Position numbers and translations under genes: made by a program. A stretch of DNA of 41,337 bases from Pelotomaculum isophthalicicum JI (lineage in GTDB: Bacteria; Bacillota; Desulfotomaculia; Desulfotomaculales; Pelotomaculaceae): positions 1 through 41,337 of the forward strand of contig NZ_JAKOAV010000030.1 of assembly GCF_029478095.1 (NCBI RefSeq). Direction: 5' to 3'. Every line of letters starts with the position of its first letter. Position 1 is the stretch's first letter. Shown here one piece after another: positions 16,610 through 39,573 of the stretch. Below the pieces are notes generated by a model that was given only the letters and a program-made list of their open reading frames with translations, was not told the DNA's origin and searched no databases.

Positions 16610-17134
16610 TCATATTGAAAATTCCCACTCACAATTATATTCATCCGAGTGGTTGTTGTCCGGATGACAGGTAAGGCAACGAGTCTTGATACGGGAGTCA
16701 ATGGTTTTCGCAAAACTGCTATATTCAAGAATACCCACCGGCTTGCATGGAAATTCCGGCATCTTCTTCCATTTCCTGGTCGCTTGAACCCGGCAGGTGG
16801 TCATTCTGAAAATCAATTTATTTTCGCTTAATTCAACAACTTCCTTTTTGTTGAGAAAAGAGTACTGCCTCAATTCCAGGGCTTTTACCAGGGCGGGCAA
16901 GCCTCCGTCCGGCGGGATTTTATGTAACTTCATGATCCTGGCGGCTTCTATCTGAGCAAATCTATCCCATGCCCGGGCATCCATTTCAACAGCCTCTTCC
17001 ATGCCATACTTATTCTCCACACACTGGAACCAAACACCATCGTGCGCCAGCCAGCGTTTGGACATATCCTGCACCAGCGCTATTAATTCTTCTTTGCTAA
17101 ACGATTCGAGCGTCTTCAAGCCATCCAGTTCCAT
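16610..17134 (-). CDS. DUF6125-family (amino-thiazoline hydrolase-like) cytosolic protein
   Basis: A 174-residue protein without signal peptide. It resembles the DUF6125 proteins common in Peptococcaceae, with words such as RWLAHDGVWFQCVENKYGMEEA, ARAWDRFA and FPCKPVG. The C-terminal cysteines (TRCLTCHPD...YNCEW), together with Cys in MTTCRVQ, could hold a metal. The wider group is sometimes linked to L-2-amino-thiazoline-4-carboxylate hydrolase-like folds, but I know of no demonstrated activity for it. Convergent with the PilZ gene and separated from the acyl-CoA synthetase operon by its terminator. Confidence 0.7.
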   Translation of the reverse strand: MELDGLKTLESFSKEELIALVQDMSKRWLAHDGVWFQCVENKYGMEEAVEMDARAWDRFAQIEAARIMKLHKIPPDGGLPALVKALELRQYSFLNKKEVVELSENKLIFRMTTCRVQATRKWKKMPEFPCKPVGILEYSSFAKTIDSRIKTRCLTCHPDNNHSDEYNCEWEFSI

Positions 17135-17377: not shown

Positions 17378-18103
17378 TTATTTATTGACAGTCGACACAG
17401 ACGCCAGCTCACTTGATAACACTATGCGCGCGTCAACTATCGAATAATAATCAGGATAGGCTAATACCGGATTGAAATCCAATTCGCTAATTTCCGGCAT
17501 TTCTTCGAGCAACTTACCGGCATGAATAATGAGATCCGCTAATGCCACAATGTCGCAGGGTTTATTCCGGCGAACCCCTTGCAGGATCTTAAATACCTTG
17601 GTCTCTCTAATCTGTCTCAATGCTTCTCCTCTGTCGAGCCGCGCCAACCTAAAGGATACATCCTGCAGCACTTCAATTAAAGTTCCACCGGCCCCAAACA
17701 TGACCACCGGCCCGAATTGCGGATCCCTTAAACCGCCTACCGCTACTTCCACACCTTGAGGCATTGACTTTTGTACAAGCACTCCATATATCTCAGCGTC
17801 CGGGACCTTGCCACGGACATTTTCAAGCATGGTGCTGTACGCATTTTTAAATTGCTCCTCTGACTGAATACCGGTAACAACACCACCCGCGTCGGTTTTA
17901 TGAATTACTTGCGGGGAAACCACCTTGACAACCACCGGGAACCCCATGGATCTGGCGGCGTCTATTCCATCTTCTACATTCGCGACAAAATTGAACTGTG
18001 GACAAGTTATTCCAAACTCACCGCAAACATAGTACGCTTCCGGTTCTAACAAGTGACTTCTTCCTGTCTTTAAAACATCTTTAACTAACTTTTTATAATC
18101 CAT
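17378..18103 (-). CDS. ADP-forming acyl-CoA (acetyl-CoA) synthetase, beta subunit (ATP-grasp)
   Basis: A 241-residue ATP-grasp subunit that takes phosphate from the alpha-subunit phosphohistidine and forms ATP from ADP. The ATP-grasp motifs FPVVVKVVS, IHKTDAGGV and VMFGAGGTLIEVL are plain, as is the metal-binding end ELDFNPVLAYP. The split of alpha and beta into separate genes is the archaeal ACD type; many bacteria have a fused protein. It overlaps the end of the alpha gene by 11 bases, so the two are translationally coupled. In fermenters or syntrophs the enzyme would conserve energy from acyl-CoA + ADP + Pi; the acyl group could be acetyl or aryl. The operon appears to be under sigma-54 control. 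Confidence 0.9.
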   Translation of the reverse strand: MDYKKLVKDVLKTGRSHLLEPEAYYVCGEFGITCPQFNFVANVEDGIDAARSMGFPVVVKVVSPQVIHKTDAGGVVTGIQSEEQFKNAYSTMLENVRGKVPDAEIYGVLVQKSMPQGVEVAVGGLRDPQFGPVVMFGAGGTLIEVLQDVSFRLARLDRGEALRQIRETKVFKILQGVRRNKPCDIVALADLIIHAGKLLEEMPEISELDFNPVLAYPDYYSIVDARIVLSSELASVSTVNK

Positions 18104-19544
18104 AATTTAACCTGCTTTTCCGCCACTCGCTATACCACACCATGTTCGCCATCACTGAAGCCGCTACATCAGGAAATTCCAAAGTAGGTATACCTCCACG
18201 CTCAAAAAGACGTCTTAGTTCAGCAACATGAGATCCGAACGTAAAAACGCTGAGCAACGGCTTCCTCTTTTCTTTGGGAAATGAATTATAAGCATTGAGG
18301 AAGTGCTCGACAAGTTTCTCATTGCTAAAAAAAGCTGGTGGAGTAATCAAATAGATCAGCCCGTCAACACCTTCATCCGCGAGAATTGTTTTTATAACCT
18401 CTTCATGCAGCTCTTCGGTGACGGACGCTGTCATATCCACATAGCCTTGAGGCTCATCAACAACGGCAGTGCGGGCTAGTGTTTCTTTTAAATGATTTTT
18501 GGCGTGATCTGACAGACTGGCCATTTCCACTACACCAGTGGCTAACAAAGCGTCTATGCAAATCGTTCCCGGCCCGCCAATAGCTGTGAGAACACATATC
18601 CTCTTTCCCCGTGGCAACGGCTGCTTGCCAAGGGCACAAATAGTATAGTAGAATTCCGCGACAGCAACGGTTCGAATGATTCCAGCCTGGCGGAATGCTC
18701 CATCATAAATCTTGTCGTTGCCGGCAACCGCTCCCGTGTGACTGCGCACCGCTCCGGATCCAAAGTCTGTTCGCCCACTTTTAAAGGCCACTATCGGTTT
18801 CGTTTGCGAAACCTTTTTGGCCACTTCTACAAAGCGTCTACCCTGCCTGATTCCTTCCAGGTACATGGCTATAACCTTGGTGTTTTTGTCTTCGCCAAAA
18901 AATTCTACAACCTCATCCATATCCACGTCGGCCATATTACCCACAGTAAGAAATTTACTGAGACCGAAAAGTTCCAGATCTTTTGCCCACATGAGAAACG
19001 AGGCGGCGAACGCGCCGCTTTGGGAAACGACAGAAACCTCGCTTTTAAGGTACGGCGGCAAATCAAATATAGTATTAACACCACTGTGTTGATCAGCGAT
19101 TCCCAGGCAATTTGGTCCAATTACGCGTATACCGCGAGCTTGTAAAGGTTCCAGCATGGCCTTCTCTTTGGCCAGGCCATCCGCCGAACCCCCTTCGCCA
19201 AATCCAGCGGAGACAACCACTATACCGGCGACGTCTCCTTTTTCGTCCCACCGGCGGGCAATATCCTGCGCAATCCTAACACATTCATCAGCGCCGACAA
19301 TCAGTACCACCAAGTCCAGCCGGCCGGGAATATCCAGGATGTTTTTATAGCATTTAAGGCCTTCGATTGTTGATTGTGTGGGATTAACCGGGTATATTAG
19401 TCCATCGAAGTCCATTGCTTTTGCGTTCCGGACGATTTGGTTGCCCGGCTTGCCGGGTCTGGGTGACGCCCCGACAATGGCAATGCTCTTGGCGTTGAAC
19501 ACGCCACTCAGACTGCCTTTAGTAACTTGTTTGGTAACTCTCAT
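18093..19544 (-). CDS. ADP-forming acyl-CoA (acetyl-CoA) synthetase, alpha subunit
   Basis: A 483-residue CoA-binding and phosphohistidine subunit. It has a Rossmann CoA-binding domain (about 12-110, IAIVGASPRPGKPGN), succinyl-CoA-ligase-like domains and the catalytic His269 in SHTGAVAG. VIGPNCLG and VVSQSGAF are further family words. The ATG at 19544 follows AGAGGGAACG; an upstream ATG at 19577 has no such site. The gene leads a two-gene operon. About 150 bases ahead lies a match to a sigma-54 promoter and a further 190 bases upstream a copy of the 35-bp dyad. It probably partners with the CoA ligase at 25012 in aromatic or fatty acid metabolism, though substrate specificity cannot be read. 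Confidence 0.9.
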   Translation of the reverse strand: MRVTKQVTKGSLSGVFNAKSIAIVGASPRPGKPGNQIVRNAKAMDFDGLIYPVNPTQSTIEGLKCYKNILDIPGRLDLVVLIVGADECVRIAQDIARRWDEKGDVAGIVVVSAGFGEGGSADGLAKEKAMLEPLQARGIRVIGPNCLGIADQHSGVNTIFDLPPYLKSEVSVVSQSGAFAASFLMWAKDLELFGLSKFLTVGNMADVDMDEVVEFFGEDKNTKVIAMYLEGIRQGRRFVEVAKKVSQTKPIVAFKSGRTDFGSGAVRSHTGAVAGNDKIYDGAFRQAGIIRTVAVAEFYYTICALGKQPLPRGKRICVLTAIGGPGTICIDALLATGVVEMASLSDHAKNHLKETLARTAVVDEPQGYVDMTASVTEELHEEVIKTILADEGVDGLIYLITPPAFFSNEKLVEHFLNAYNSFPKEKRKPLLSVFTFGSHVAELRRLFERGGIPTLEFPDVAASVMANMVWYSEWRKSRLNYGL

Positions 19545-19691
19545 TATCGTTCCCTCTGATTTTTCGTTATCTAGCAATCCAGTTCGCTAAAAGGCTCAAA
19601 TTGCAATCCCGGTAACGCCACGTAATAATGAAATAGCATTATAGTTAAATTTCACATAATATTTATACCTGGCAATTACAAGATATTTTAA

Positions 19692-19707
19692 TGCAATTTT
19701 CATACCA
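19692..19707 (-). promoter_or_regulatory. Sigma-54 (-24/-12) promoter for the acyl-CoA synthetase operon
   Basis: On the minus strand TGGTATGAAAATTGCA matches the consensus TGGCACG-N4-TTGCW, with the invariant GG and GC in exact spacing. It lies 148 bases ahead of the alpha-subunit ATG. The 35-bp dyad at 19881-19915 is in the position of an enhancer site. Confidence 0.7.
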
Positions 19708-19880
19708 CTAACTGATGCGTTTCCGTTTTATTCTGACTTTTTTTCGCGGTAATTTTTACGTTTTGTAGAAATTATTTTAAAAACGCTTTATCAATAAAGT
19801 TAAGATTGACCTGAGATTAAACAAACATATGCCATCACATGTAACTATAAACATTTACGCCTGTATAGTATTAATTCAGG

Positions 19881-19915
19881 TGTCCGGTAATTATACAGCG
19901 TATGATTGTCGGACA
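19881..19915. promoter_or_regulatory. 35-bp dyad operator, copy A (putative activator site)
   Basis: TGTCC, 7 bases, ATAC, 3 bases, GTAT, 7 bases, GGACA. The outer arms extend further here (CAGGTGTCCG/CGGACACCTG, 19877-19919). Copies B (27251) and C (27456) have exactly the same internal spacing. It lies about 190 bp upstream of the sigma-54 promoter, as expected for an enhancer. The remainder of the 19545-19968 gap is AT-rich with no gene seen. Confidence 0.7.
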
Positions 19916-19968
19916 CCTGCCTAATTCTAAAGCATAAAATAAGTTGCTTTTTTCCAAGTACAATGTTT

Positions 19969-20507
19969 TTATATCGCCTCTACCTTACATAACAAGGCTT
20001 TGAAGTCGGGGTAACCGGTAATTGGATCACGCACTTCCATATCGGTCAGGAGATTAACGTTAGCTTGGGACCACCCGTGTGGAACAGCTACTATTCCCGG
20101 CATTAACCTTGGCTGCTCCTTAACCCGCATGTTTATACTGCCATTGCGGGTGGACAGCCGGATCCGTTCCCCGTCCTTTACTCCGTAACGGCTGCAGGTC
20201 GACGGGTGGATTTCAGCAAACGGCTCCGGTTCAAGAGTTCTGAGTTTCGGCACATGCCGCATTTGTGTATGCGTAAATGCTTTCCTCCTGGCCCCGCTAA
20301 TCAATATTAACGGATACTCCTTAGCTAGTTCGGGAGTGCTTACCGGACTCTGCGCCGGCTCCACATATTTCGGCAGCGGATCGTAGCCGGCATCTTCCAG
20401 GGTCTTGGAATATATTTCGATCTTGCCGCTGGGCGTGAGGATCTTTTTATTCTTGTACAATCCCACACGCATAGCATGCAATCGCTTAGCACAGTTCTGC
20501 TTTCCAC
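19969..20507 (-). pseudogene. Internally deleted molybdopterin oxidoreductase copy
   Basis: A remnant of a paralogue of the gene at 22746-24800. Read from GTG 20507, the first 18 codons encode ESRTVLSDCMLCVWDC, matching the N-terminal Fe-S region of the intact gene. The sequence then jumps to the C-terminal molybdopterin-dinucleotide-binding domain, beginning KKILTPSGKIEIYSKT and ending DFKALLCKVEAI. About 510 codons are missing, and the joint changes the reading frame, so no fused product is made. A frame opening at an internal ATG near 20481 could express only the C-terminal domain, preceded by six or so unrelated residues, without a proper ribosome site. The upstream AAGGGGTGG resembles the intact gene's AAGGAGTGG. 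No catalytic core remains. Confidence 0.85.
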
Positions 20508-20658
20508 TTTACGCCACCCCTTACATTACAGGATCTATACAATAATTGTAAATGAATATAATTCATAAGCCAATTCTTAATTGCATTAAATTCATTAAAG
20601 GGAATTTGTAGTGAGGATATGATATAATATACAGAAGCCATCACTAGGAGGAATAACG

Positions 20659-20991
20659 TTGGATATCGGCAATAAAATAGCCTTTCTTAGAGAGCAAGCG
20701 GGATTGACGGGATCAGCCCTTGCTTCAAAGGTCGGTCTTAACCAGTCCCAGATCTGCAAGATCGAGAAAGGTGTCTGCAACCCTTCAATAAGCACCTTGC
20801 GCAAAATATGCGACGCCCTTGGTATTTCATTGCCCCAATTTTTTAACGGTGAGAGTCTGGAGGAAATGCCTCTTCATTTGCAGCGTCTGTTAGCGCAAGC
20901 CAAGAAACTATCCCCCGAGGAGGTTCAACAGCTCAGCAACCTTCTCGAAGTCATGTTGGCCAAGAAAGAAGTAAAAAAGGAAGATATCTAG
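20659..20991 (+). CDS. XRE-family helix-turn-helix regulator
   Basis: A 110-residue DNA-binding protein. Residues about 6-60 form a Cro/C1-type HTH (IAFLREQAGLTGSALASKVGLNQSQICKIEKG), followed by ISTLRKICDALGISLPQFF. The short C-terminal helix region (LSPEEVQQLSNLLEVMLAKK) may dimerise. TTG is the start, with AGGAGG seven bases ahead. A TATAAT stands 35 bases upstream of the start, without a strong -35. It sits between two internally deleted molybdenum-related genes; its target is not evident. Confidence 0.8.
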   Translation: MDIGNKIAFLREQAGLTGSALASKVGLNQSQICKIEKGVCNPSISTLRKICDALGISLPQFFNGESLEEMPLHLQRLLAQAKKLSPEEVQQLSNLLEVMLAKKEVKKEDI

Positions 20992-21002
20992 TGGCGTGTT
21001 GA

Positions 21003-21599
21003 TCATCCGCCAATCTGCGACATCACCCGGTTGTCCTGCCAACCATCAAGCATGTGGTGCCGATCTGCTTTTAAGCTTACCGCTTTCTTGATTAGAACGG
21101 CTATTTCTTTGATGCCCGCGCCATTGCGCAATGGAGCCTTTAAGTCTATCTCGCAGCTGTCATACAGGCATGGTCTCAAACTTCCCGTTGAGGTTAGCCG
21201 CAGGCGGTTGCAACTGCTGCAAAAATGGTCGCTCATTGATGTGATGAAGCCGACGGTACCCTGGGCGCCTTCAAGCCGGTAGTATTTTGCCGGGCCGCTG
21301 CCTGCGGGTATCTTCGCCGGGATCAGTTGCCCCAGCTTATTTTTGATTTTGGAGATGCGCCTTACCAGGTTCTCCAACCCCTTGCGCACAAGAGGTTCCC
21401 CCCCGGTCAGGCGCACCTTTTTCACGCCGATTGAAGCAGCCGCCCCAACAACGGTCCCGATTTCTTCAAAGCGCAGGATTTCTTTGTGATCAACAAACTT
21501 TACGCCTTCCGGCGGCATGCAGTAAACACAGCGCAAATTGCACCGGTCAATGACGGAAATCCGCAAGTAATTTATCTCCCGCTGGTAGTTGTCCTGCAT
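21003..21599 (-). pseudogene. moaA: moaA with a large in-frame internal deletion
   Basis: MoaA is the radical-SAM GTP 3',8-cyclase of molybdopterin synthesis, usually 320-335 residues; this frame has 198. The N-terminal Fe-S cluster site is intact (Cys20, Cys24, Cys27), as is LTGGEPLVRK. The C-terminal cluster (Cys127, Cys130, Cys144), RLRL and the functionally needed terminal Gly-Gly are also present. About 130 residues are missing at residue 86-88, where KIK joins NKLGQLIPAK. The lost part holds the TTNG and SLDS strands and much of the SAM-binding barrel, so GTP cyclisation is very unlikely. The reading frame is kept, so a stable remnant protein could still be made. I cannot exclude a diverged radical-SAM protein, but the ends match MoaA too well. 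Confidence 0.75.
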
Positions 21600-21720
21600 T
21601 ACACGATCACCTTCTCGCTTATATGTCAAAATCATTTCTTGTCAACTAGTCGACCATAATGCTTGCAGGTAACCTACCTTCCTCGTCCGCTTCGGAAACA
21701 GCCCATCCTAAGCACACGAT

Positions 21721-22572
21721 TCAAACAACCTTTGCGATTTCTTCAAGCTTTTTTGCCGAAGCAGCCAGTTCCAGCAAGCCGGCGGAAATTTCTTCGGTGG
21801 CCGCGGACTGTTCCTCGCTCTGAGCCGCGGAATCAACAACTCTTTCAGCCATTTTTGATATGTTATCATTAATCATGGCAAGGATTTCCCTGATTTCCTT
21901 GACAGCTTGGGCACTTTTTACCGACAGTTTACGAATCTCCTCGGCTACCACCGAAAAACCCCGGCCGTGATCCCCGGCTCTGGCCGCCTCTATAGCGGCG
22001 TTAAGGCCCAAGAGGTTTGAGGTGTCAGCCACCTCATGAATAAAGCCCAAAATCATGTCGGTCTTCTTCACCTGTTCCAACACTTCCTTGCCAAGACTAT
22101 CAAGCTCTCCTTGATTGCTTGCCAACTGTTGAGCAGAAGAAGCAAGTTCCTCAACCGAAGCGGAAGTCTGTTGCGTTGAAGACGCCACCAACTGGGCCAC
22201 GTTCTGCAGTTTCTCCTGATTCTTCAAACTGACGCCCAAACCCACCACTCCAACTATATTACCCCTGCTGTCTCTTAACGGCATGGCTCTGGATTTAAAA
22301 GAAACACCGTAAACTTCTTTCGGCACAATAGTATCGACGACCTCACCTGTAGTGATGGCTTTATACAAACCACTGCCCTGAACAACTGGTTTTCCGTCAG
22401 CATGCAAATTAATATCCTTTCCCGGAAGGTAAAGAATATGTTTCTCCCTATCCGCTATACCAATAGTACAGTCCAGTGGAATCATTTCCTGGATCAGCGG
22501 AGCGCTTTTACAAATAGATTGCAATATATCTTCTTCCTTATTAATAACAGAAGTTTCTTCCATAAGGGACAA
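21721..22572 (-). CDS. Soluble methyl-accepting chemotaxis-like protein
   Basis: A 283-residue cytoplasmic signalling protein without membrane segments. The N-terminal half (about 10-135) looks like a PAS/sensor domain, with [18 protein letters not shown] and [19 protein letters not shown]. The C-terminal half is a short MCP signalling coiled coil whose hairpin tip reads [37 protein letters not shown]. The TTG at 22572 is preceded by AAGGAGG seven bases upstream; the next Met is three codons further in. It may link redox or ligand sensing to CheA, or act as a non-motility regulator. Confidence 0.85.
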
Positions 22573-22629
22573 CTTATTAACCTCCTTGCCAAACTCGTGA
22601 ACAGGTTGACGCACAGTTCTTTGAATTTA

Positions 22630-22667
22630 CAGGCGAGGCTGCAACCTTACGGTTACCCCCTCGCCTG
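22630..22667 (-). terminator. Stem-loop between the molybdopterin oxidoreductase and MCP genes
   Basis: CAGGCGAGG pairs with CCTCGCCTG, with an inner GGTAACC/GGTTGC stem. There is no T-tract, so it may be a processing or attenuation structure and not a true terminator. Confidence 0.4.
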
Positions 22668-22745
22668 ATGTTTAACCTGTGATGCTAATATCTACTTTCG
22701 TTTGAACTCCCTGTACCAGTTTCTCTAAATAATCAGTTAGAGAAT

Positions 22746-24800
22746 TTATACAGCCTCAACCTTGCACTGCAGAACCTTGAAGTCGGGGTAACCGGTAACG
22801 GGGTCACGTACTTCCATATCGGTCAGCAGGTTGACGTTAGCATCTCCAGCCCAGCCATGCGGCACAGAAACGACGCCCGGCATCAGCCTCGGCTCTTCCT
22901 TAACACGCAGTTTGATGCTGCCGTTGCGGGTGGACAGCTTGACGCGCTCACCGTCTTTAACTCCAGCACGGGCGGCGGTCGCCGGGTGCATTTCAACAAA
23001 CGGCTCCGGCTCAAGGGCCCTGAGATGCGGGACATGCCGCATCTGGGTGTGGGTAAACGCCTGCCGCCGGGCTCCGCTGATCATAATAAGCGGATACTCT
23101 TTGGCCAGTTCGGGGGTGCTGATCGGGCTTTGCGCCGGCTCCACGTATTTCGGCAGCGGGTCTAGGCCGGCATCCTCCATGGTCTTGGAATATATTTCAA
23201 TCTTGCCGCTCGGGGTAAGGATCTTCTTCTTCTCATAGGCGTAGTAGTCCTGCTTGTTAAAATACTTGCCCATTGGATCTGCTTTTAACTCTTCGCCGAT
23301 ACCGCTTGGTGCCAGCAGGTGATCCATCACTTCTTCATCTGTATTCCATGGGAAGTACTCTCCCAGTCCCAGGCGGCGCGCCAGTTGGGTCCAGATCCAC
23401 CAGTCGGGCTTGGACTCCCCTACCGGTTCGACAACCTTGTGGTGGTACATCGCAAAGGGTTCACCGTGCACTACGCCATGGACGTAGGAAATAGCATCCT
23501 TCTCCATGAAGGTGCAGGCAGGTAAAACTAAGTCAGCCATTTCAGCGGTTTCGGTCATGAAGAGGTCGATTGCCATCATGAAGTCCATGGACTTAAAGGC
23601 CTCAATGAACTTGTTCGCTTCCGGGAAGGAAACCACCGGGTTGGCTGCGGCGACTATGGCGCCCCGGACTGGATAAGGCTTGCTCTCCAGGGCTGCCTGC
23701 GGGAACAGGGTGGCAATGCCGTAAGGAGATACCCGTCCCCAGAAAGAGTAAAACAGCGGGTATTGATCAGCGCCAATCGGCTTGATGTCCATCGGCAGGC
23801 GCAGGTCGGTCATGCGAAGGAAGGGAATGGTAACCCAGGTACCCGGCTTATCGACGTTGCCGGTAATAATCTGCAGGATGGACAAGAGCCTAGACAGCTG
23901 AAAACCGTTGACGTGCTGGTCCAAGGTATTGATCCCCTGCACGATGCAGGCGGGCTTGGTTTGGGCAAAAATACGGGCTGTCGCCTTGATGTCACTTGCG
24001 GACACCCAGGTTATCTCTGACGCCCACTCCGGCGTATACTGCTGGACGTGCGCTTTCAGCTCTTCAAAGCCGATGGTATAGCCTTCGACAAACTCTTTGT
24101 CGTAAAGGCCTTCATTAATAATCACGTTGAGCATGGCCAGTCCAAGCGCTCCGTCAGTGCCGGGCCGGATCGCCAGGTGCAGCCCCAGTTCGGCCAACTC
24201 GGTCCGCTTGGGGTCAATGGTAATCAGGTCAAGAACTCTCTTTTTTGCTTTATCCCTGATCATTTCAGCCAGTATGCCCTTGGAGCCGTCCGGGTTATGA
24301 CCCCAGAGAACGATGCAGCGGGCATCGGGCGGGTAGTCCATCGGGTACCGCCCGAAGGTCATCTGACGGGCCATGATCCGGGCGCGGTAACATACGTTTT
24401 CCACTGACAGCAGGTTGGGGGTGCCGTAGGCCGACTTGAACCTCTGCGCAAACCCTGCCACTTCAATATTTTCCACGCCCATTGAACCGCAGAAAATAGC
24501 CAGTGATTTGGCGCCATACTGCTCTTTGATTTTACCCAGCTTCTCGGCGGCATAGTCCAGCGCTTCTTCCCAGCTAAGCCGCTCCCAGGTGTTGTTCACC
24601 CGGCGCATGGGATATTTAATGCGGTCCGGCGAATATACAAATTCAGGGAGATATTCTCCCCGGGGGCAGATATACCCTTTGCTTACCGGGTGCTCAGGCA
24701 ATCCCTCCACCTTTACCATCTTACCGTCTTCCAGCGTAACTTTAATGCCACAGTCCCAGACACATGACATGCAGTCGCTTATCACAGTTTTTCTTTCCAC
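22746..24800 (-). CDS. Molybdopterin (Mo/W) oxidoreductase, DMSO reductase superfamily
   Basis: A 684-residue enzyme with no Tat or other signal, hence cytoplasmic. Cys10, Cys13, Cys17 and Cys45 bind a [4Fe-4S] cluster. Cys137, in ENVCYRAR, stands where the protein ligand of Mo or W is expected. The C-terminal dinucleotide-binding domain (about 565-684) is complete. The cysteine layout resembles acetylene hydratase, but the residue after the second Cys is Val, where acetylene hydratase has its essential Asp. No electron-transfer subunit is adjacent. It follows the CoA ligase gene, in the same direction, after 211 bases, so it probably belongs to the same sigma-54 unit. The GTG or ATG choice is settled by AAGGAG upstream and by the remnant paralogue. 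The substrate is unknown; an aromatic or aldehyde compound is plausible. Confidence 0.85.
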   Translation of the reverse strand: MERKTVISDCMSCVWDCGIKVTLEDGKMVKVEGLPEHPVSKGYICPRGEYLPEFVYSPDRIKYPMRRVNNTWERLSWEEALDYAAEKLGKIKEQYGAKSLAIFCGSMGVENIEVAGFAQRFKSAYGTPNLLSVENVCYRARIMARQMTFGRYPMDYPPDARCIVLWGHNPDGSKGILAEMIRDKAKKRVLDLITIDPKRTELAELGLHLAIRPGTDGALGLAMLNVIINEGLYDKEFVEGYTIGFEELKAHVQQYTPEWASEITWVSASDIKATARIFAQTKPACIVQGINTLDQHVNGFQLSRLLSILQIITGNVDKPGTWVTIPFLRMTDLRLPMDIKPIGADQYPLFYSFWGRVSPYGIATLFPQAALESKPYPVRGAIVAAANPVVSFPEANKFIEAFKSMDFMMAIDLFMTETAEMADLVLPACTFMEKDAISYVHGVVHGEPFAMYHHKVVEPVGESKPDWWIWTQLARRLGLGEYFPWNTDEEVMDHLLAPSGIGEELKADPMGKYFNKQDYYAYEKKKILTPSGKIEIYSKTMEDAGLDPLPKYVEPAQSPISTPELAKEYPLIMISGARRQAFTHTQMRHVPHLRALEPEPFVEMHPATAARAGVKDGERVKLSTRNGSIKLRVKEEPRLMPGVVSVPHGWAGDANVNLLTDMEVRDPVTGYPDFKVLQCKVEAV

Positions 24801-24906
24801 TTTACTTCCACTCCTTAAAACATCTTATATCAATTTAGCGCACATAAGGAGCGCTTAGGTCGTATACAGGATATTCTTAAATCACCGTCCTGTTCGGTTA
24901 AGGCTG

Positions 24907-24928
24907 GCGCGGGCATTTACGCCCGCGC
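24907..24928. other. Intergenic GC-rich hairpin
   Basis: GCGCGGGC and GCCCGCGC flank a six-base loop between the CoA ligase and oxidoreductase genes. No T-tract follows on the minus strand, so it may stabilise or process the transcript and need not end it. Confidence 0.45.
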
Positions 24929-25011
24929 TCTCAATATCGTATCTTTAGCTTAATCTAGTGCCTATCCAAACCATTAAGTCCTTGCCAACTATTACACTTT
25001 GTTTTTCCAAA

Positions 25012-26592
25012 TTAATTAACGCCCTCGATTTTCACTCTCTCACGCAGTTTATACCGTTGGATTTTACCGGTGGCGGTACGCGGCAGTTCCGTAACAAATT
25101 TGATCCAGCGCGGGAACTTGTAGTGGGCAATATTCTTGCGCACGAAGTCCTGAATGTCTTTAACAAGCTCAGGAGATCCCTCACAACCCTCTTTAAGAAC
25201 CACATAAGCCATTGGTTTAACCAACTCATCCGTGTCGGCTGCCGGGACAACACCACACTCAGCCACTGCCGGGTGGTGCAGAATCGCATCTTCGACTTCA
25301 ATTGGTGATACCCAGATACCGCCGGCTTTCAACATATCATCAGCGCGACCGACACCGAAGTAATAGCCTTCTTCATCTTGATAGAACTTATCTCCGGTAA
25401 TAAACCACTCGCCAATAAAGCATTCCTTGTTCTTCTGGTGCTTGTTCCAGTAACATTGTGCCGTACCTTCAGCTTTAAGCCACAGGTTGCCGGCTTCTCC
25501 CCTGGGCACTTCGTTTCCTTCTTCGTCACACAGCTTGCCCTCATAGCCGGAGAGCAGGTTGCCAAGGCTGCCGGGCTTAACCGAACCAGGCACGCAGGAA
25601 AGATAAATCGCTCCCACGTCACTTGAGCCGAGGCCGTCGAGGATTTCAATACCGAACAATTCTTTCCAGCGATCAAATATTACCCTGGGCAGGGCTTCCC
25701 CGGCAGAAACACACGCTCTAACCGAAGAAAAGTCATAGTCGACACCCTTAACCCCTTTATCCATGAGAGCCAGCAAGGCCATATAGGAACTCGGCACTCC
25801 GTAATAGATGGTGGGCCGGTATTTTCTGACCACTTCGATCAAAGCGTCCGGCTTCGGCATGCCCGGGAACAGGACCACAGCACCGCCGCTTAACAATACG
25901 GTATCAAACGAGTTATTGCGGCCATAGGAGAAATACATCTTGGAAAGCGAGAACGAAATGTCATCTGGAGTCGCTTTTACTACTTCATCACAGTGGGCAG
26001 TCAAATACATGAGGTCGTGCTGCAGGTGCACAATACCCTTCGGCTGGCCGGTGGTGCCGGAACTGTAAAGCCAAAAACCCGGATCGTCCTTATTGGTGTC
26101 AGCGGCTTCCAGGTCAGGGGATGCTTCTTTACAAATCTCACTGAAGCTTAACAGTCCTGGAACCGCATTACCGATTACGATCATGTGCTTCAAATACTTG
26201 AATTGATCCTTTACTTCCATAAATAACGGCAGCACGCTCTCGTGAACGATCGCTGCTTTGGCGCGGCTGTCGTTTACGTAGTAAAGATAATCTTGCGCTA
26301 TAGCCATGGTGCTAAGGAGAACCGGCACTATTCCCGTCCTCATTGTGCCTAGGAAACTATAGAAAAATTCCGGCATATCAGGCATGCAGAGCAACACACG
26401 GTTTTCCCTCTCAATACCTAAATTAAGCAGGGCATTACCAAGACGGTTAGCTCTTTCCGCAACTTCGGCGTAGGTGATCTTTTCATCTTCATAGTAAATA
26501 CAAACATTGTTTCCGCGGCCCTCTTTTAAGTGCCTGTCCATAAGGTAAGTGGTAATGTTAAACTCGGCGGGTATCTCTGGCATACGAAGCAT
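25012..26592 (-). CDS. Benzoate-CoA ligase-family acyl-CoA synthetase (AMP-forming)
   Basis: A 526-residue adenylate-forming enzyme. It has the phosphate loop YSSGTTGQPKG (176-186), the A5-like region DGLGSSDVGAIYLS, GEWFITGDKF and the hinge GRADDMLKAGGIWVSPIEVE. The catalytic lysine is Lys510 in TATGKIQRYKLRE. The order and wording of the motifs (GIVHLQHD, KMYFSYGRNNSF, SAGEALP) are those of benzoate- and 4-hydroxybenzoate-CoA ligases. It would activate an aromatic acid with ATP and CoA, releasing AMP. AAGGAGG stands ahead of the ATG. A leader of more than 400 bases separates it from two tandem sigma-54 promoters and the divergent activator gene. Substrate identity is inferred from family resemblance only. 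Confidence 0.87.
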   Translation of the reverse strand: MLRMPEIPAEFNITTYLMDRHLKEGRGNNVCIYYEDEKITYAEVAERANRLGNALLNLGIERENRVLLCMPDMPEFFYSFLGTMRTGIVPVLLSTMAIAQDYLYYVNDSRAKAAIVHESVLPLFMEVKDQFKYLKHMIVIGNAVPGLLSFSEICKEASPDLEAADTNKDDPGFWLYSSGTTGQPKGIVHLQHDLMYLTAHCDEVVKATPDDISFSLSKMYFSYGRNNSFDTVLLSGGAVVLFPGMPKPDALIEVVRKYRPTIYYGVPSSYMALLALMDKGVKGVDYDFSSVRACVSAGEALPRVIFDRWKELFGIEILDGLGSSDVGAIYLSCVPGSVKPGSLGNLLSGYEGKLCDEEGNEVPRGEAGNLWLKAEGTAQCYWNKHQKNKECFIGEWFITGDKFYQDEEGYYFGVGRADDMLKAGGIWVSPIEVEDAILHHPAVAECGVVPAADTDELVKPMAYVVLKEGCEGSPELVKDIQDFVRKNIAHYKFPRWIKFVTELPRTATGKIQRYKLRERVKIEGVN

Positions 26593-27017
26593 CCTTTTTC
26601 CTCCTTTTTAATAAAGTGCTTTATTTATTGTGAATTTGTTCACTATTGATATTGCCAAATTATATTCTAATTTCTTTTATGGAAAATTAATTGACAACCT
26701 GCCTGGCGACCCTAGATAATTCATGCCATATTTCTCTAAATATTTCTCCATACCCCCCTCTTTTAAACACACATATAACACCATCACCCCACTTAGCAAG
26801 TCAATATAAGGAGCACAGGACGGGATGATTTTATATCCCCGCCCTATGCGCTGCTTCCGTCAGGGCGACTCCAGGTTCAACTTTGACTCGATTAAATTAT
26901 TCACAGTTCTCAGTTGAATCTTATTCATTGCTATTTTCCCACTTTGTCAAATTACCCCTTATCCCTTACCAGAACGCTTAAGGCCTCTTTTCCAAATAAC
27001 ACAACACAGTTTATTAA
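26593..27017 (-). other. Long untranslated leader of the CoA ligase transcript
   Basis: About 425 bases between the proximal sigma-54 promoter and the ligase ATG hold no convincing gene. An imperfect stem (26817-26845; AGGACGGGA against TCCCCGCCCT) is the only clear structure. The region is AT-rich. Confidence 0.45.
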
Positions 27018-27033
27018 AGCAATTTTTATGCCA
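27018..27033 (-). promoter_or_regulatory. Sigma-54 promoter P2 for the CoA ligase operon
   Basis: On the minus strand TGGCATAAAAATTGCT fits TGGCACG-N4-TTGCW with exact GG to GC spacing. It repeats P1, 89 bases away, together with flanking bases. Confidence 0.7.
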
Positions 27034-27106
27034 TAAAAACCAGGCCAATTGTTGATTAACATTATCCCTTACCAATTGAACGGCTTGACTCTCAACAGGT
27101 TATTAG

Positions 27107-27122
27107 TGCAATTTTTATGCCA
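27107..27122 (-). promoter_or_regulatory. Sigma-54 promoter P1 for the CoA ligase operon
   Basis: On the minus strand TGGCATAAAAATTGCA is a strong -24/-12 match. Dyad copy B is centred about 150 bp upstream of it, the usual enhancer distance. A short open frame overlapping this site (27069-27257, minus) is not credible as a gene. Confidence 0.75.
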
Positions 27123-27250
27123 TAAACGATCCTTCACTAAATTCCAGAAAATAATTTGCATATAGCTTTTTACTAGCAATAACGCCATGCCGTTCCGAAG
27201 AGTGCAGCATCCCTTACGGCTGAAATCTGCAAAAGCATAGCTGAGGCATT

Positions 27251-27285
27251 TGTCCATTTAACATACGGTGTATAATTATCGGACA
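27251..27285. promoter_or_regulatory. 35-bp dyad operator, copy B
   Basis: TGTCC-N7-ATAC-GGT-GTAT-N7-GGACA. Same spacing as copies A and C, differing at most of the spacer positions. It lies upstream of P1 and P2 and is likely the enhancer for the CoA ligase operon. Confidence 0.75.
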
Positions 27286-27455
27286 AAAAATTTAATGTTT
27301 AAGAAGGAATATATCAATCCACGTAGAAGATATATGTAAAACCCCACTTATATGAAGCCCCGCTCATCAATGTGAAAAAAATTCCTCTTTTCCAATAAAG
27401 GCTTGGACTTTCGAAGACACAGTTTGCTATCCTGTATGTAAAACTGTTTATTTTT

Positions 27456-27490
27456 TGTCCTGAAAACATACACTGTATGATTTAAGGACA
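27456..27490. promoter_or_regulatory. 35-bp dyad operator, copy C, at the activator gene
   Basis: TGTCC-N7-ATAC-ACT-GTAT-N7-GGACA, ending 32 bases before the activator ATG. A possible main-sigma promoter (TTGCTA, 17 bases, TTTATT; 27424-27452) ends just before it, so binding here could repress the activator's own transcription. Its centre is 205 bp from that of copy B. Confidence 0.7.
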
Positions 27491-27522
27491 AACACAATCT
27501 AAAGGCGCGAGGTGGTAGCTAA

Positions 27523-28926
27523 ATGCTGGCAAAAGATATTATGGTACCCACCACTGTAAGTCTTGAGCCCCACAGTAAAATGCGTGAAGCTATTAGTATT
27601 CTCCGGGACACAAGGCTTGGCGCAATTCCCATAGTTGACTCAAGCAACAGGCTCATAGGGATGTTTACAAGGTCAAATTTATTTGATTGCTTACTAAATG
27701 GTGTAAGCATTGACACTGAGTTATCAGGCCATTTCATCACGGACGTTATTTATTTTAAAGAAGATAAGCGGTTTAATAATCTTTCCGAACTTAATCAATG
27801 GTTGCGCAAAGTACCTATCGGTCAAACGCCTGTCGTTGATCTTCAGGAACACCCCATAGGTTTCATGACCCGGGATATTATCGTCTGTTTTTTGCTTGAC
27901 CACATTGAAAAATATTACCGGGATAAGCCCAAAGAGGATTCCCAAAAAATAAACTCTTCACATATAACCAGACATGAAGAACTTTACAAAATAAACGGCA
28001 CTAAATATAATATAGATTCGATCATTGGCAAGAGCAACGACATGGAGAAACTTAAAAGATTAGCTTTAATGGCGGCACAGACTGCCTCTACTATTCTTAT
28101 TACCGGAGGTTGCGGGACGGGGAAAGAATTGTTTGCGCAGGCCATTCACAATGCCAGCAGCCGGTGGTATCAACCATTTATTAATATAAACTGCGCGGCC
28201 ATACCGGCTGAACTAGCCGAATCAGAGCTATTCGGTTATGAAGGAGGAGCTTTTACCGGCGCAAGTAAACATGGTAAGCCGGGTAAGTTTGAATTAGCAG
28301 ATAGAAGCACTATCTTTTTAGATGAAATTGGAGATATGCCCCTGCCGCTTCAAAGCAAACTGCTACGCATTATTCAAGAAAAAGAGGTTATGCGGGTAGG
28401 AGGATTGCATCCTAAAAAAATTGACGTTCGAATCATTGCCGCCACGAATCAAGATCTCCAAAAACTCTATTATGAGGGTAAATTCAGGCAAGATTTATAT
28501 TATAGATTAAAGGTTATATCGTTAAATATTCCGCCGCTGAGTACTCACTCTGAGGACATTCCCATTTTAGTTAATTATTTTATTGACATATACAGCAAAG
28601 CAAACAATAAACAGATTAAAGGCATTTCCAAAGAAGCAATGAATTATTTACTAAGTTATGATTGGCCAGGCAATATTAGAGAATTGGGAAATGTTATAGA
28701 GAGGGCTATATTGTTCTGCAAAGAGAAAATAATAAGACTGGAAGATTTGGGCGTTAGTAACAATAATAGTAATATTGAAAGCGGGGCAGATATTTTTTCA
28801 CTATCGGGTATTGAAAGAGATACCATTCTTAAAGCTTTGCAAGCCACAAATGGGAACAAATCTCAAACAGCAAAAATATTGGGTATCAGCCGGTCAACTT
28901 TATATAAAAAGTTGGAGTTACTATGA
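27523..28926 (+). CDS. Sigma-54-dependent transcriptional activator with N-terminal CBS pair
   Basis: A 467-residue bacterial enhancer-binding protein. Two CBS domains (about 1-57 and 70-125) form a sensor module that in other proteins binds adenine nucleotides. The AAA+ domain (about 165-390) has Walker A GGCGTGKE (195-202), the sigma-54 contact loop GAFTGA (242-247) and Walker B ending FLDEIGD. A Fis-type HTH closes the protein (GNKSQTAKILGISRSTLYKKL). The ATG follows GCGAGGTGG. It is divergent from the CoA ligase operon and carries dyad C right before its start. It is the obvious candidate to bind all three dyads. AMP released by the CoA ligase is a possible ligand, as an inference. Confidence 0.92.
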   Translation: MLAKDIMVPTTVSLEPHSKMREAISILRDTRLGAIPIVDSSNRLIGMFTRSNLFDCLLNGVSIDTELSGHFITDVIYFKEDKRFNNLSELNQWLRKVPIGQTPVVDLQEHPIGFMTRDIIVCFLLDHIEKYYRDKPKEDSQKINSSHITRHEELYKINGTKYNIDSIIGKSNDMEKLKRLALMAAQTASTILITGGCGTGKELFAQAIHNASSRWYQPFININCAAIPAELAESELFGYEGGAFTGASKHGKPGKFELADRSTIFLDEIGDMPLPLQSKLLRIIQEKEVMRVGGLHPKKIDVRIIAATNQDLQKLYYEGKFRQDLYYRLKVISLNIPPLSTHSEDIPILVNYFIDIYSKANNKQIKGISKEAMNYLLSYDWPGNIRELGNVIERAILFCKEKIIRLEDLGVSNNNSNIESGADIFSLSGIERDTILKALQATNGNKSQTAKILGISRSTLYKKLELL

Positions 28927-29012: not shown

Positions 29013-30458
29013 TTATATTCTAAAGCTTTTTACTTCTTTTGAAACGCCTTTCACTTCCAGAACATGCACAGCACAGGCAATGCAGGGGTCAAAGGCGCGG
29101 ACTATGCGCACCAACTCAATCGGATTGTCCGGGTCTTTGACCGGGGCGCCTACCAAAGCCTCTTCTATCGGACCGCGTTGCCCCTTGTCATCCCTGGGAC
29201 CACCATTCCAGGTAGTCGGCACAACTGCCTGGTAATTATCAATCTTGTGGTCTTTAATGGTAATCCAGTGTCCCAGAGCGCCGCGCGGAGCCTCGTGCAA
29301 TCCTACGCCAGATCCTTCTTTAGGTATGTTAAACGGCGCGAAGGTCGGCTGTCCGGGCACCAGTTGATCCAACCACTCGGGCATGGCGTGGGCAACCTGG
29401 GTGGCTTCCAAAGCGCGCGCGAAATGCCGTCCAAGAACCGAAAATCCCTTGTCTCCCAAACCAATAACGTCTTTTTGCTTATTTACAATCTGGCGGGCCA
29501 ATGGTCCCACCTCATACGGCGTTCCTTCATAACGAGGCGCCTTTAACCAGGAGTACGCGCCCTTCTTTCCGGGAGCCGGTTCGGTTACTCCTTCTCCAGG
29601 ATATTTTCCAGTTCCATCTTTGAACCAGGAATATTTTACCTCTTCAGTTATTTTAGTCTTGTCAAGCGGTAAAAACTGACCGTTGATATAGCGGCCACGC
29701 TTAAACAACTGTTTTTGCCCGTCCGGATCGTCTTCATCGGTCAGTTTGATGCCGCCATAAGCCAGCATGTTTTTACAGCCTGTCCCGATGCTGAACCCGT
29801 CATCGCCATAAATCTTCGCCACCGCGAGCACATCCGGGATATACACGTCATCCACAAAAGAGGTTATTTCACGCAGGTACTGTCTGAACTGGGCGATTTT
29901 TTCGGCCGTCACGACTTCAGTCACTCCGCCCGCGGTAAACACTGTGACGTGAGGCATTTTTGCCCCAAAGATAGCCAGCATCTCTTGCGCTTTTTTACGG
30001 ATGTCCAAAGCCTTGATATAATGCTGCACCGCCAGGTCGTTAATATCTTGAGGCAAGCGGTAATCGCCTTCATAACGCGGGATAAAGGGCGCCGTTTCAG
30101 GCCCCTTGACATAATCCAAAGCCGCCAGGTGGTAAAAATGCAGCACATGGGATTGCAAATAATTTGCCCCTTGGATTAAATTGCGGACGATCCTGCCGTT
30201 TGTCGGCGGCTTCACGCCAAAAGCGTCATCAAGACACAGCATCGAGGCCGTGCCGTGGGCAATCGGACAAACTCCGCAAATCCGCTGCATAATATGACAG
30301 GCATCGCGAGGATCGCGCCCTTTTAAAATTAATTCCAAGCCCCTGAATAAAGTCCCGCTTGATTTGGCGTCAATAACTTTTCCGCCATCTACTTCCACTT
30401 CAATCTTCAGGTGTCCTTCAATCCGGGTTACCGGATCAATAATAATTTGTTGTGCCAC
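29013..30458 (-). CDS. [NiFe] hydrogenase large subunit, group 1-like
   Basis: A 481-residue catalytic subunit. The nickel-iron ligands are in the L1 motif RICGVCPIAH (about residues 59-68) and the L2 motif DPCIACAVH near the C-terminus. Sixteen residues (VLEVKGVSKEVKSFRI) follow the last His; these are removed by the maturation protease encoded at 31830. RIEGHLKIEVEV and RGLELILKGRDP are typical of respiratory, outward-facing enzymes. It has no signal of its own and would be exported bound to the Tat-signal small subunit just upstream (38-base gap). It oxidises or evolves H2. No cytochrome b or c partner gene is seen, so the electron acceptor is unknown. Confidence 0.95.
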   Translation of the reverse strand: MAQQIIIDPVTRIEGHLKIEVEVDGGKVIDAKSSGTLFRGLELILKGRDPRDACHIMQRICGVCPIAHGTASMLCLDDAFGVKPPTNGRIVRNLIQGANYLQSHVLHFYHLAALDYVKGPETAPFIPRYEGDYRLPQDINDLAVQHYIKALDIRKKAQEMLAIFGAKMPHVTVFTAGGVTEVVTAEKIAQFRQYLREITSFVDDVYIPDVLAVAKIYGDDGFSIGTGCKNMLAYGGIKLTDEDDPDGQKQLFKRGRYINGQFLPLDKTKITEEVKYSWFKDGTGKYPGEGVTEPAPGKKGAYSWLKAPRYEGTPYEVGPLARQIVNKQKDVIGLGDKGFSVLGRHFARALEATQVAHAMPEWLDQLVPGQPTFAPFNIPKEGSGVGLHEAPRGALGHWITIKDHKIDNYQAVVPTTWNGGPRDDKGQRGPIEEALVGAPVKDPDNPIELVRIVRAFDPCIACAVHVLEVKGVSKEVKSFRI

Positions 30459-30496: not shown

Positions 30497-31489
30497 CTAA
30501 CTAGTTTTCTTCTTTTCCGGAAACTCTATTTTCAGGTTAGGCACAACCGGTGCGTAAGTAACCTTTTCTTTGTTGGTCAGGGGATACACGCCATAGAAAG
30601 GCGCGCTTTGGTCAGGAAAAGTAGGTTCTGAACAAGCCTGACAAGGAGCCCCGGCCTTTATGCACCAGTTCACATTATTGTTCCAGCCCCGCTTATAGCA
30701 GTCCGAGGTGGCCACAAAACCCTTGCAGCCCAAATAAGCCAGACACCCTTCATCACCAATATACTGGGCGAATTTGCCAACATCAAAATACTGCCGCCGG
30801 AAACAATTATCGTGAATCGGTTCAGGATAGAACATCTTGGGGCGCCCAAACTTGTCCAATTCCGGAATTTGGCCGTATTTCAACACGTAAACAACCGTGC
30901 CCAGGAAATGGTCGGGATGCATCGGACATAAGGAAAGATTAATGACAGGTTTATCTTTAACCACCTGATTTACACCCACCACCCCGGTAGGATTGGGCGC
31001 CGCGGCGGGTATGCCGCCGAACGAGGCGCAATTGCCGGCTGCAATCACGGCGCTGGCTGCCTTGCCAAGGGTAGTCACGGCTGACAGCATGGTTAATTCT
31101 TTATTATTTTTTTCCGCGATGGTGCAGTAAGCCCCTTTCTCCTTGGTGGGAATGCCGCCTTCAATTACCAGGATAAACTGATTATTTAATTTTGACGCCG
31201 CTTCCTCCAATACTTCCGCGCAAAGATGACCTGACCCGGCCATAACATTAGGATGATACCTTAAGCTGATAACGTCGAGAAGCACCTTTTCAATCGCCGG
31301 TTCGACACTGTTTAGCAACGAAATAGAGCACCCCGTGCAACTGGCGCCTTGCAACCAGATTACCGGAGGTTTGCCGTCAGCCGCAAAAGCCAGAGTTTCT
31401 TCGAGATCGGGCCCCAGCAAAGTGATTAGACTTGCTCCGGCTGCCGAAGTCATGCAGAGCTTAATAAATTCACGCCGTGTTAAACCCAA
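30497..31489 (-). CDS. [NiFe] hydrogenase small subunit with Tat signal
   Basis: A 330-residue iron-sulfur subunit. The Tat signal starts MGLTRREFIKLC and ends near LAFA. The proximal cluster ligands lie in ASCTGCS, GNCASFGG and LCPMHPDH. Medial and distal clusters are served by HDNCFRRQ, EGCLAYLGCKG and NWCIKAGAPCQACSEP. There is no hydrophobic C-terminal anchor (it ends PEKKKTS), so the dimer is probably soluble outside the membrane or attached by an unidentified partner. The TTG start at 31489 is chosen because GGAGGGAGTAAGA precedes it and the Tat motif begins at once. A riboswitch candidate and a terminator lie in its leader, separating it from the upstream hyp genes. Confidence 0.94.
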   Translation of the reverse strand: MGLTRREFIKLCMTSAAGASLITLLGPDLEETLAFAADGKPPVIWLQGASCTGCSISLLNSVEPAIEKVLLDVISLRYHPNVMAGSGHLCAEVLEEAASKLNNQFILVIEGGIPTKEKGAYCTIAEKNNKELTMLSAVTTLGKAASAVIAAGNCASFGGIPAAAPNPTGVVGVNQVVKDKPVINLSLCPMHPDHFLGTVVYVLKYGQIPELDKFGRPKMFYPEPIHDNCFRRQYFDVGKFAQYIGDEGCLAYLGCKGFVATSDCYKRGWNNNVNWCIKAGAPCQACSEPTFPDQSAPFYGVYPLTNKEKVTYAPVVPNLKIEFPEKKKTS

Positions 31490-31663: not shown

Positions 31664-31680
31664 ACATGACATCTAAACTG

Positions 31681-31775
31681 TGCTCTCCTTTCCACGATGG
31701 GAGGCGTACCGGTTTCCCGGTATACCCGCCGGTCAGGCATCCATACCACAGGCTAAGGTCACCTGGCTCGGAGAA
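31681..31775 (-). ncRNA. Moco/Tuco-type riboswitch upstream of the hydrogenase structural genes
   Basis: On the minus strand the order of conserved blocks is CTCCGAGCC, GACC, TAGCC, GATGCCTG, a GC-rich variable stem (ACCGG-GAAA-CCGGT), GCCTCCCATCGTGG and AAAGGAGAG. The first CTCC pairs with the last GGAG. This is the layout I know for the Moco RNA motif, and the tupA leader at 39473-39573 has the same blocks. A terminator follows at 31590. Moco RNAs usually precede molybdenum or tungsten transport, cofactor or enzyme genes. A [NiFe] hydrogenase needs neither metal, which makes this placement odd. Identified from memory of the consensus; no covariance model was run. Confidence 0.75.
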
Positions 31776-31829
31776 TAAGCTATAGATTAAGCTGTATTTT
31801 TATTTCGATAAAAAAGTTTATTTTCCTTT

Positions 31830-39460: not shown

Positions 39461-39472
39461 CGGAAATAAATA

Positions 39473-39573
39473 GAGCCCTCTTCTCCTTTCCACAATGGGA
39501 GGTGCATTCGTTTCCAAACGCGCCCTGACGGCCAGGCACCCATACTTGGGCTTAGGTTGTCTGGCTCGGAGAT
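39473..39573 (-). ncRNA. Moco/Tuco-type riboswitch upstream of tupA
   Basis: On the minus strand it shows CTCCGAGCC, AACCTAAGCCC, GGGTGCCTG, a variable stem (GCGTTTGGAAACG), CACCTCCCATTGTGG and AAAGGAGAAG. The ends CTCC/GGAG close the structure. The layout matches the hydrogenase-leader RNA block for block. A terminator follows, pointing to an OFF switch that stops transcription of the tungstate transporter when molybdenum or tungsten cofactor is sufficient. Given the target gene, the tungsten-cofactor variant is the more likely. Confidence 0.82.

Follow-up and report, generated by a model that had tools for sequence, protein, structure and literature searches.

Analysis of a 41,337-nucleotide stretch of DNA from Pelotomaculum isophthalicicum JI (contig NZ_JAKOAV010000030.1; hereafter, the window) centered on three copies of a 35-bp element and on a nearby gene for a putative sigma-54 activator (27523-28926). 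We consider it highly likely, based on comparisons of sequence, that the 35-bp elements are composite enhancers through which this activator switches on aromatic-acid metabolism via benzoyl-coenzyme A (benzoyl-CoA). The three elements are very probably landing sites for the nearby activator. Acting there and at further copies of the element in other parts of the genome, this activator seems to turn on the uptake and oxygen-free breakdown of benzoate-like compounds.

An initial annotation of the window had reported three exact matches to the pattern TGTCC-N7-ATAC-N3-GTAT-N7-GGACA, and these were confirmed with 0 mismatches at 19881-19915, 27251-27285 and 27456-27490 (copies A, B and C; Table 1). 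When up to 3 mismatches were allowed, A, B and C were still the only matches in the window, compared to a mean of 0.01 matches over 100 shuffles, none of which contained three. The three sites are real and far beyond chance. The same annotation had placed -24/-12 promoter sites about 190 bp from A and about 150 bp from B. Sites of this type were present, although the distances measured were 174 bp for A and 129 and 218 bp for B, which has two candidates where one had been proposed. The CoA ligase, molybdenum/tungsten (Mo/W) enzyme and ADP-forming acyl-CoA synthetase thought to be under the control of the sites were all found behind such sites.

A pattern search of the whole source genome (G000; 3.61 Mb, 93 contigs) identified four exact copies, one copy with 3 mismatches before bamB and one more match with 3 mismatches (G000:C6:47667), which was set aside as chance because it had no hit with the element model, a sequence-only model of 12 sites covering both strands. 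The fourth exact copy (G000:C1, L046:9203) was 103 bp from TGGTATGAAAATTGCA (L046:9340), the identical 16 letters of the promoter-like site behind copy A. The gene downstream of it is the first of two 2-hydroxyacyl-CoA dehydratase D-components (HGD-D), with an indolepyruvate-type oxidoreductase further on. The 3-mismatch copy (G000:C2, L047:8791) was 177 bp from TGGCATAAAAAATGCA and ahead of an AFOR-family gene whose product is BamB-like, as it matched benzoyl-CoA reductase 4z3w at 7.6e-238 versus 4.4e-66 for aldehyde oxidoreductase 1aor. The model added a 37-bp pair (G000:C39, L085), with TGGTATGAATATTGCA, before a Na_sulph_symp-family symporter gene. The regulon had been described as self-contained; the further copies ahead of bamB, of a symporter gene and of a dehydratase pair extend it beyond the window and point to the benzoyl-CoA pathway.

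Searches of related genomes indicated that the element tracks the activator. At E <=0.01 the model gave hits in 5 of 113 genomes of the order (G000, G100, G001, G019 and G015) and in 0 of the 108 others. These five were exactly the genomes with a best activator hit 78-100% identical, and second activator copies were found in G001 (74%) and G019 (78%). Consistent with this pattern, G009, which carries the same genus label as G015 and G019, had neither an activator orthologue nor the element. These data bear on the possibility that another regulator owns the sites and the CBS-domain activator is merely a neighbor, a reading consistent with several target operons being on contigs other than that of the activator gene and with the presence of other sigma-54 activators in the source genome (8 hits at E <=1e-60). 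However, the genomes with the element are exactly those with a close orthologue of the activator, and the element lies just upstream of all five distinct activators (at least 72% identical) that were examined, with 0 and 1 mismatch at two of them and in degenerate form, with 3-5 mismatches, at the other three. We regard ownership by another regulator as very unlikely.

In the related genomes, the element was found before bamB (G001:C32 and G015:C80), before an ADP-forming acyl-CoA synthetase (G001:C22), before a Mo/W enzyme (G001:C1), before NuoE/NuoF-like genes (G015:C143 and, more distantly, G019:C245), before a symporter (G019:C245) and near a symporter fragment (G001:C29). No aromatic-pathway-type target was identified near the elements at G019:C211:14321, G019:C173 and G001:C34. 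The bamB gene was present in 15 of 15 genomes with an activator hit of E <=1e-110 versus 12 of 98 others (Fisher 1e-11, ignoring relatedness), and in 16 of 31 versus 11 of 82 when the cut was E <=1e-95 (6e-5, again ignoring relatedness). The search for the dyad across genomes, which the initial annotation had proposed, found a pattern that is far from random, tracks close activators and occurs before bamB, ligase and synthetase genes, although some bamB genes had no listed element. Separately, BamB matches with one reported stop codon inside the alignment were observed at G080:C71, G088, G056, G047, G015:C80:60866, G001:C16 (TAA) and G027 (TGA).

Several of these genomes share DNA with the window or with one another. 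G100, a metagenome-assembled genome (MAG), is labelled as the same species; its contig C42 was 99.8% identical to the window, and its activator 100% identical. The counterpart of element A in the same genome (G100:C114, L095:2761-2795) differed at 7 of 35 positions, with 0 differences among the 18 fixed ones (p 0.003); this contig may be from a strain other than that of the remaining MAG, as it was only about 79-98% identical to the window piecewise compared to the 99.8% for C42. G001:C54 (L049) and G019:C167 (L050), although from genomes with different genus labels, matched at 99.95% over 8736 bases, which reflects either contamination of the G019 assembly (8% by label) or a recent transfer, and they were counted once because they are the same DNA. 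A second B-C element pair on G001:C54 (L049:11665-12212), before an apparently decayed activator copy and with the ligase on its other side, looks like a local duplication.

The proposal that the sites act as sigma-54 enhancers was supported by a held-out set of 12 sites at 10 loci that lay outside model building; the element model contains no promoter information. Promoter-like sites were scored (maximum 15.6) with a mark of 13.3 when facing away from the element at 60-320 bp; the weights, which build on the sigma-54 consensus, and the marks and range were our choice. In the first held-out list, a score of at least 13.3 was reached at 10 of 12 sites and 9 of 10 loci (binomial 5e-8). That list omitted weaker model hits from E 0.115 up, except the G000:C39 pair partner (0.13). 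Addition of G019:C173 (E 0.115; score 13.1 at 173 bp) gave 9 of 11 loci (hits to E 0.13; binomial 2e-7), and addition of G001:C34 (E 0.49; score 11.5) gave 9 of 12 (9e-7), the counts covering model hits below E of about 1. These fuller counts leave the picture and the odds as they were. The miss in the held-out set was L086, and at L092 the site found faces another gene. The gaps between element and promoter-like site were 76-297 bp, nine of them 157-187 bp. In G100, the sites corresponding to A (L095) and to the bamB element (L096) had promoter-like scores of 14.1 and 14.5; being copies, they did not enter the counts.

An alternative is that the sites are repressor operators or the ends of mobile DNA and that the -24/-12 matches are coincidental. 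On their own, such matches were at chance frequency in the window (20 found versus 21.5 expected at <=2 mismatches), and copy C is located in a gene leader, both of which fit this alternative. In contrast, a facing promoter-like site was present at 9 of the 11 held-out loci, compared to 12.1% of 626 random low-GC positions (6.1% of all 3000 random positions), and the 8-base flanks of the copies had little in common beyond a T-rich tendency. We consider this alternative extremely improbable.

The 35-bp element was initially viewed as one dyad of invariant spacing. A pair of adjoining 17-bp TGT-N11-ACA boxes, separated by a single base, describes it better. The consensuses of all four quarter-sites, from 13 aligned sites that included one outside the model (L052:9207-9241, 5 mismatches), begin with TGT, so that the element reads TGT-N11-ACA, one base, TGT-N11-ACA. 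When box widths from N5 to N17 were tested in 26 loci, pairs with a 1-bp linker were formed only by TGT-N11-ACA (18 pairs). As 15 of the 26 loci were in the set for carrying a site, the eight loci picked by activator protein alone (L112-L119) are the better test, and these contained 5 exact 1-bp-linked pairs, in L116, L117, L118 and L119. In the 113 genomes, the doubled box had 56 matches versus 16 for a reversed control pattern. Where the activator hit reached E <=1e-95 (31 genomes), the counts were 43 versus 8 (13 versus 8 in the other 82), and in the 15 genomes at E <=1e-110, 14 of which had at least one match, they were 39 versus 5 (17 versus 11 in the other 98). In other families of the order, too, doubled boxes occurred next to longer CBS activators and next to bam, ligase or symporter genes. 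A different perfect palindrome in the same doubled frame was noted at G000:C60:4723-4757 and G100:C3:13396-13430.

The length of the element is not invariant, as variants of 34 bp (L113, with one mismatch), 37 bp (L085, G000:C39) and 47 bp (L087, G001:C22) exist, along with a linker-0 form in L115. These variants are relevant to a different reading, in which one dimer recognizes one dyad, the inner CATACAsTGTATG palindrome, and the outer TGTCC/GGACA arms are touched by a second protein or domain. The inner palindrome is the longest conserved run of the element, and the 37-bp and 47-bp pairs can be parsed as an intact, fixed inner dyad with a shifted outer arm. We retained this reading as a rival because these two forms parse both ways. 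Nevertheless, the outer arms vary in L116-L119 (TGTAAA-type and others) whereas the TGT-N11-ACA boxes and 1-bp linker are constant, both boxes are kept in the 34-bp and linker-0 forms, and abutting pairs with a 1-bp linker arise only at width N11. Based on these observations we think the single-dyad reading unlikely, and prefer the two-box architecture.

One clear CBS domain was recognized in the predicted activator, along with a sigma-54 AAA domain and a Fis-type helix-turn-helix. No receiver domain, as in two-component NtrC-type proteins, was among its Pfam hits at E <=0.001; it has the CBS domain instead. Its translation carries GGAFTGA, and the eight orthologue sequences have GAFTGA (5) or GSFTGA (3). 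Its top NCBIfam hit was PrdR (NF041552) at 431.1 bits, under the cut-off of 795, and it matched TyrR (NF008085) at 227.5 bits, under the cut-off of 576. The motif Ghh[T/S]xx[D/N] is characteristic of adenosyl-binding CBS domains. All 8 orthologues had it in CBS1 (with T in 7 and S in L051), and none of the 8 had it in the second repeat. CBS1 matched solved CBS proteins such as MJ1225; a structure model of the CBS part had a mean predicted local distance difference test score (pLDDT) of 56.5, too weak for fold comparison.

Activator orthologues of 65-67% identity were near a benzoate-type ligase, a symporter and BamB (G084), a thiolase and a short-chain dehydrogenase/reductase (SDR) gene (G103), and a Mo/W enzyme (G102, partial). 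The longer relatives in L115-L119 (574-617 residues, 46-48% identical) also carry a CBS domain at the N terminus, and one of them had a PAS match that fell slightly short of its cut-off. Symporters lie near those of L115, L116 and L119, and benzoate-type ligases of 58-59% near those of L116 and L118. The neighbors in L117 include a Mo/W enzyme together with an ADP-forming synthetase, and those in L118 also BamE/F- and NuoE/F-like genes.

Several results weigh against the elements being sigma-54 enhancers for this activator. Only 8 of the 14 sites listed as model-building, which include the near-duplicate L049 sites 11665 and 11859 that were outside the model, had a promoter-like score of at least 13.3, and one of the 8 (L049:11859) faces the decayed activator copy. 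The misses were copy C of the window, L048:8709, L049:6744, L049:6937 (12.8), L051:8979 and L052:9399. Despite its low score, AGGAACAAGATTTGCA at L049:6937 may be real because L124 and L127 have it too, ahead of symporter genes of the same family. Among the hits listed, none was near two of the three BamB-like genes of the source genome (C19 and C63, the latter cut by a contig end). The model search covered only 61 or 150 of the first-look candidates in each genome, and at E <=1 in 25 genomes of the family, hits (E 0.1-0.3) were found in 5 of 20 without a close activator. The 65-67% orthologues (G084, G103 and G102) were accompanied by no model hit at E <=0.01, only by degenerate or 34-bp forms. 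G009, which lacks both an activator orthologue and the element, has bamB, with no element listed near it. Doubled-box matches are not all of the element family, and many in L120-L146 lack a promoter-like site. Lastly, the cut at E <=1e-110 was chosen once the gap from 1e-111 to 3e-101 had been seen, and the co-occurrence p-values overstate independence because the genomes are related.

Copy C differs from A and B in its position. The ATG of the activator gene begins 33 bp after the end of this copy, and the start-to-start distance between B and C is 205 bp in the window, compared to 192-194 bp for three further loci of the activator (G001:C54, G015 and G019:C211). No sigma-54-like site above background level was found 60-320 bp from copy C (best scores 10.3 of 15.6), and a consensus scan of 26600-27560 for a sigma-70 promoter gave no plus-strand match after 26720. 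The suggestion that the activator controls itself by activation was not borne out, as no promoter of either type was evident between copy C and the gene. As none is evident nearby that faces the activator gene, a role for copy C as a brake, or as an enhancer shared with the divergent operon, is more likely; most likely it limits activator expression or works with B on that operon. A search of Rfam for riboswitches in the leaders of the window, L046, L047 and L085 gave no match in the leaders. Two predicted leaders are about 400 bases long from promoter-like site to first gene, at window 26592-27018 (ligase) and L047:8193-8599 (bamB), with no Rfam match there.

Our model of binding, direction of control and signal is inferred from the sites, their statistics, their co-occurrence with the activator and their gene contexts. 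Two activator dimers would lie side by side on the two TGT-N11-ACA boxes with their one-base linker, and after the CBS domain sensed its signal, which is a guess, the AAA domains would assemble. The DNA would loop over about 75-300 bp, often about 160-190 bp, and ATP hydrolysis would open sigma-54 RNA polymerase at the -24/-12 promoter. The predicted regulon would comprise uptake (several symporter families), the AMP-forming benzoate-type CoA ligase, the Mo/W enzyme, class II benzoyl-CoA reductase (bamB and following genes) and the 2-hydroxyacyl-CoA dehydratase pair, and the ADP-forming acyl-CoA synthetase could regain ATP from CoA esters. More tentatively, we speculate that in several families of the order the CBS(-PAS)-AAA-Fis activators might form a family that acts as the master switch for class II benzoyl-CoA reductase and for the activation of aromatic acids. 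Reading doubled 17-bp boxes, this family would tie ring reduction, through its CBS domain, to the energy (adenylate) or CoA state at the thermodynamic limit, with CoA activation and ATP recovery being turned on together; we hold this extension to be possible but doubtful.

Table 1. Positions of the elements, promoter-like sites and genes in the window.
Feature	Position	Strand	Details
Element A	19881-19915	no strand	Boxes 19881-19897 and 19899-19915, 1-bp linker; probable enhancer of ADP-forming acyl-CoA synthetase operon
Element B	27251-27285	no strand	Doubled 17-bp boxes; probable enhancer of CoA ligase operon
Element C	27456-27490	no strand	Doubled 17-bp boxes in activator gene leader; probably autorepression or shared enhancer of divergent operon
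CBS-AAA-Fis sigma-54 activator	27523-28926	+	PF00571, PF00158 (1.2e-67), PF02954 (2.8e-14); proposed binder of A, B and C
Sigma-54 -24/-12-like site TGGTATGAAAATTGCA	19692-19707	-	174 bp from A; faces ADP-forming acyl-CoA synthetase genes
Sigma-54 -24/-12-like site TGGCATAAAAATTGCA	27107-27122	-	129 bp from B; identical 16 letters at L049:11493 before G001 ligase
Second sigma-54 -24/-12-like site TGGCATAAAAATTGCT	27018-27033	-	218 bp from B
ADP-forming acyl-CoA synthetase, alpha part	18093-19577	-	Pfam PF13607, PF13380; NCBIfam TIGR02717 402.8 bits, under cut-off 567
ADP-forming acyl-CoA synthetase, beta part (ATP-grasp_5)	17378-18103	-	Pfam PF13549 1.1e-73
DUF6125 protein, possibly last gene of synthetase operon	16610-17134	-	Pfam PF19620; gene order same in L095
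AMP-forming CoA ligase, benzoate-CoA ligase family	25012-26592	-	TIGR02262 522 bits, over cut-off 375
Mo/W bis-pterin oxidoreductase (DMSO reductase family)	22746-24800	-	Pfam PF00384, PF01568, PF04879
Soluble MCP-type signalling protein, downstream on same strand	21721-22614	-	PF00015

The closest solved structures to the CoA ligase of the window were anthranilate- and benzoate-CoA ligases, and the closest to the Mo/W enzyme was acetylene hydratase 2e7z (6.6e-104). A homologue of the MCP-type protein also adjoins the ligase of G001 (L049:8636-9484). The C-terminal remnant of a second Mo/W enzyme was observed at 19969-20481 (minus strand), with 98% identity over 162 residues to an intact paralogue of 683 residues in G100 (L095:658-2709) and a break in the alignment at window position 20457. 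A moaA-like gene at 21003-21635 (minus strand; 210 residues) looks internally shortened, as its Radical SAM match covers only profile positions 1-73 of 166 and is followed by Mob_synth_C. A molybdenum cofactor (Moco)/tungsten riboswitch at 31669-31785 (minus strand; 62.5 bits, gathering 36) is directly ahead of the genes for the small (30497-31489) and large (29013-30458) subunits of a [NiFe] hydrogenase, to our knowledge an unexpected target for this riboswitch. A second Moco/tungsten riboswitch (39467-39583, minus strand; 74.6 bits) is ahead of a PBP-type solute-binding protein gene (38410-39288). A group II intron match was found at 284-453 (minus strand; Rfam RF02001, 45.4 bits).

Together, these analyses give a predicted regulator, operator and target list for Pelotomaculum, a genus that includes species degrading phthalate isomers (PMC9516798). 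The doubled TGT-N11-ACA word can serve to locate peripheral genes of the pathway, its transporters and its enzymes of energy recovery, and the coupling of substrate activation to ATP recovery in a syntroph becomes directly testable.

Few specific regulators of anaerobic benzoyl-CoA genes are described, and those named are BamVW, BgeR (Geobacter), BzdR (Azoarcus) and BadM (Rhodopseudomonas). None of the four is presented there as a one-component sigma-54 activator with a CBS domain, and Gram-positive or syntrophic anaerobes are not among the organisms they come from (PMC6678401). By the titles of references given there, BamVW is a two-component system and the regulator of G. bemidjiensis a repressor (PMC6678401). 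Sigma-54 control of bam genes in Geobacteraceae has been stated, and the bss/hbs genes of Geotalea daltonii are similar to the system proposed here in that anaerobic aromatic genes depend on sigma-54 and on divergent activators of the Fis family (PMC11497800). They differ in their benzylsuccinate-synthase-type targets, the term CBS does not occur in the text, and the passages considered mention no doubled box (PMC11497800). The TyrR protein of enterobacteria is similar in its adjacent boxes with TGT...ACA arms and dimer-dimer contacts, but its box is TGTAAA-N6-TTTACA (TGT-N12-ACA) and the promoters studied there were sigma-70-like (PMC4374768).

No published description of this regulon or of the full doubled element was recognised in the literature searched, although one of the groups in PMC6615313 may match in part. 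The initial annotation had noted no described regulon with this operator, which held for the full element in that literature, whereas the single box belongs to a described clostridial enhancer class (PMC6615313). In that class, described for 15 Clostridiales groups including PrdR, the TGT and ACA repeats read by sigma-54 activators are 10-12 bp apart, and most of the enhancers are located 100-250 bp upstream (PMC6615313); the elements here share its features, with TGT-N11-ACA boxes and gaps of 76-297 bp. The system differs from the class in its unusual doubled box and in a target set that was absent from the parts of the literature examined. The likeness to PrdR and its group is in Fis-type sigma-54 activators with TGT/ACA inverted-repeat enhancers, and the difference is that the targets listed for PrdR are prd genes, whereas those predicted in Pelotomaculum are aromatic-acid genes with the boxes paired by a linker of mostly 1 bp (PMC6615313).

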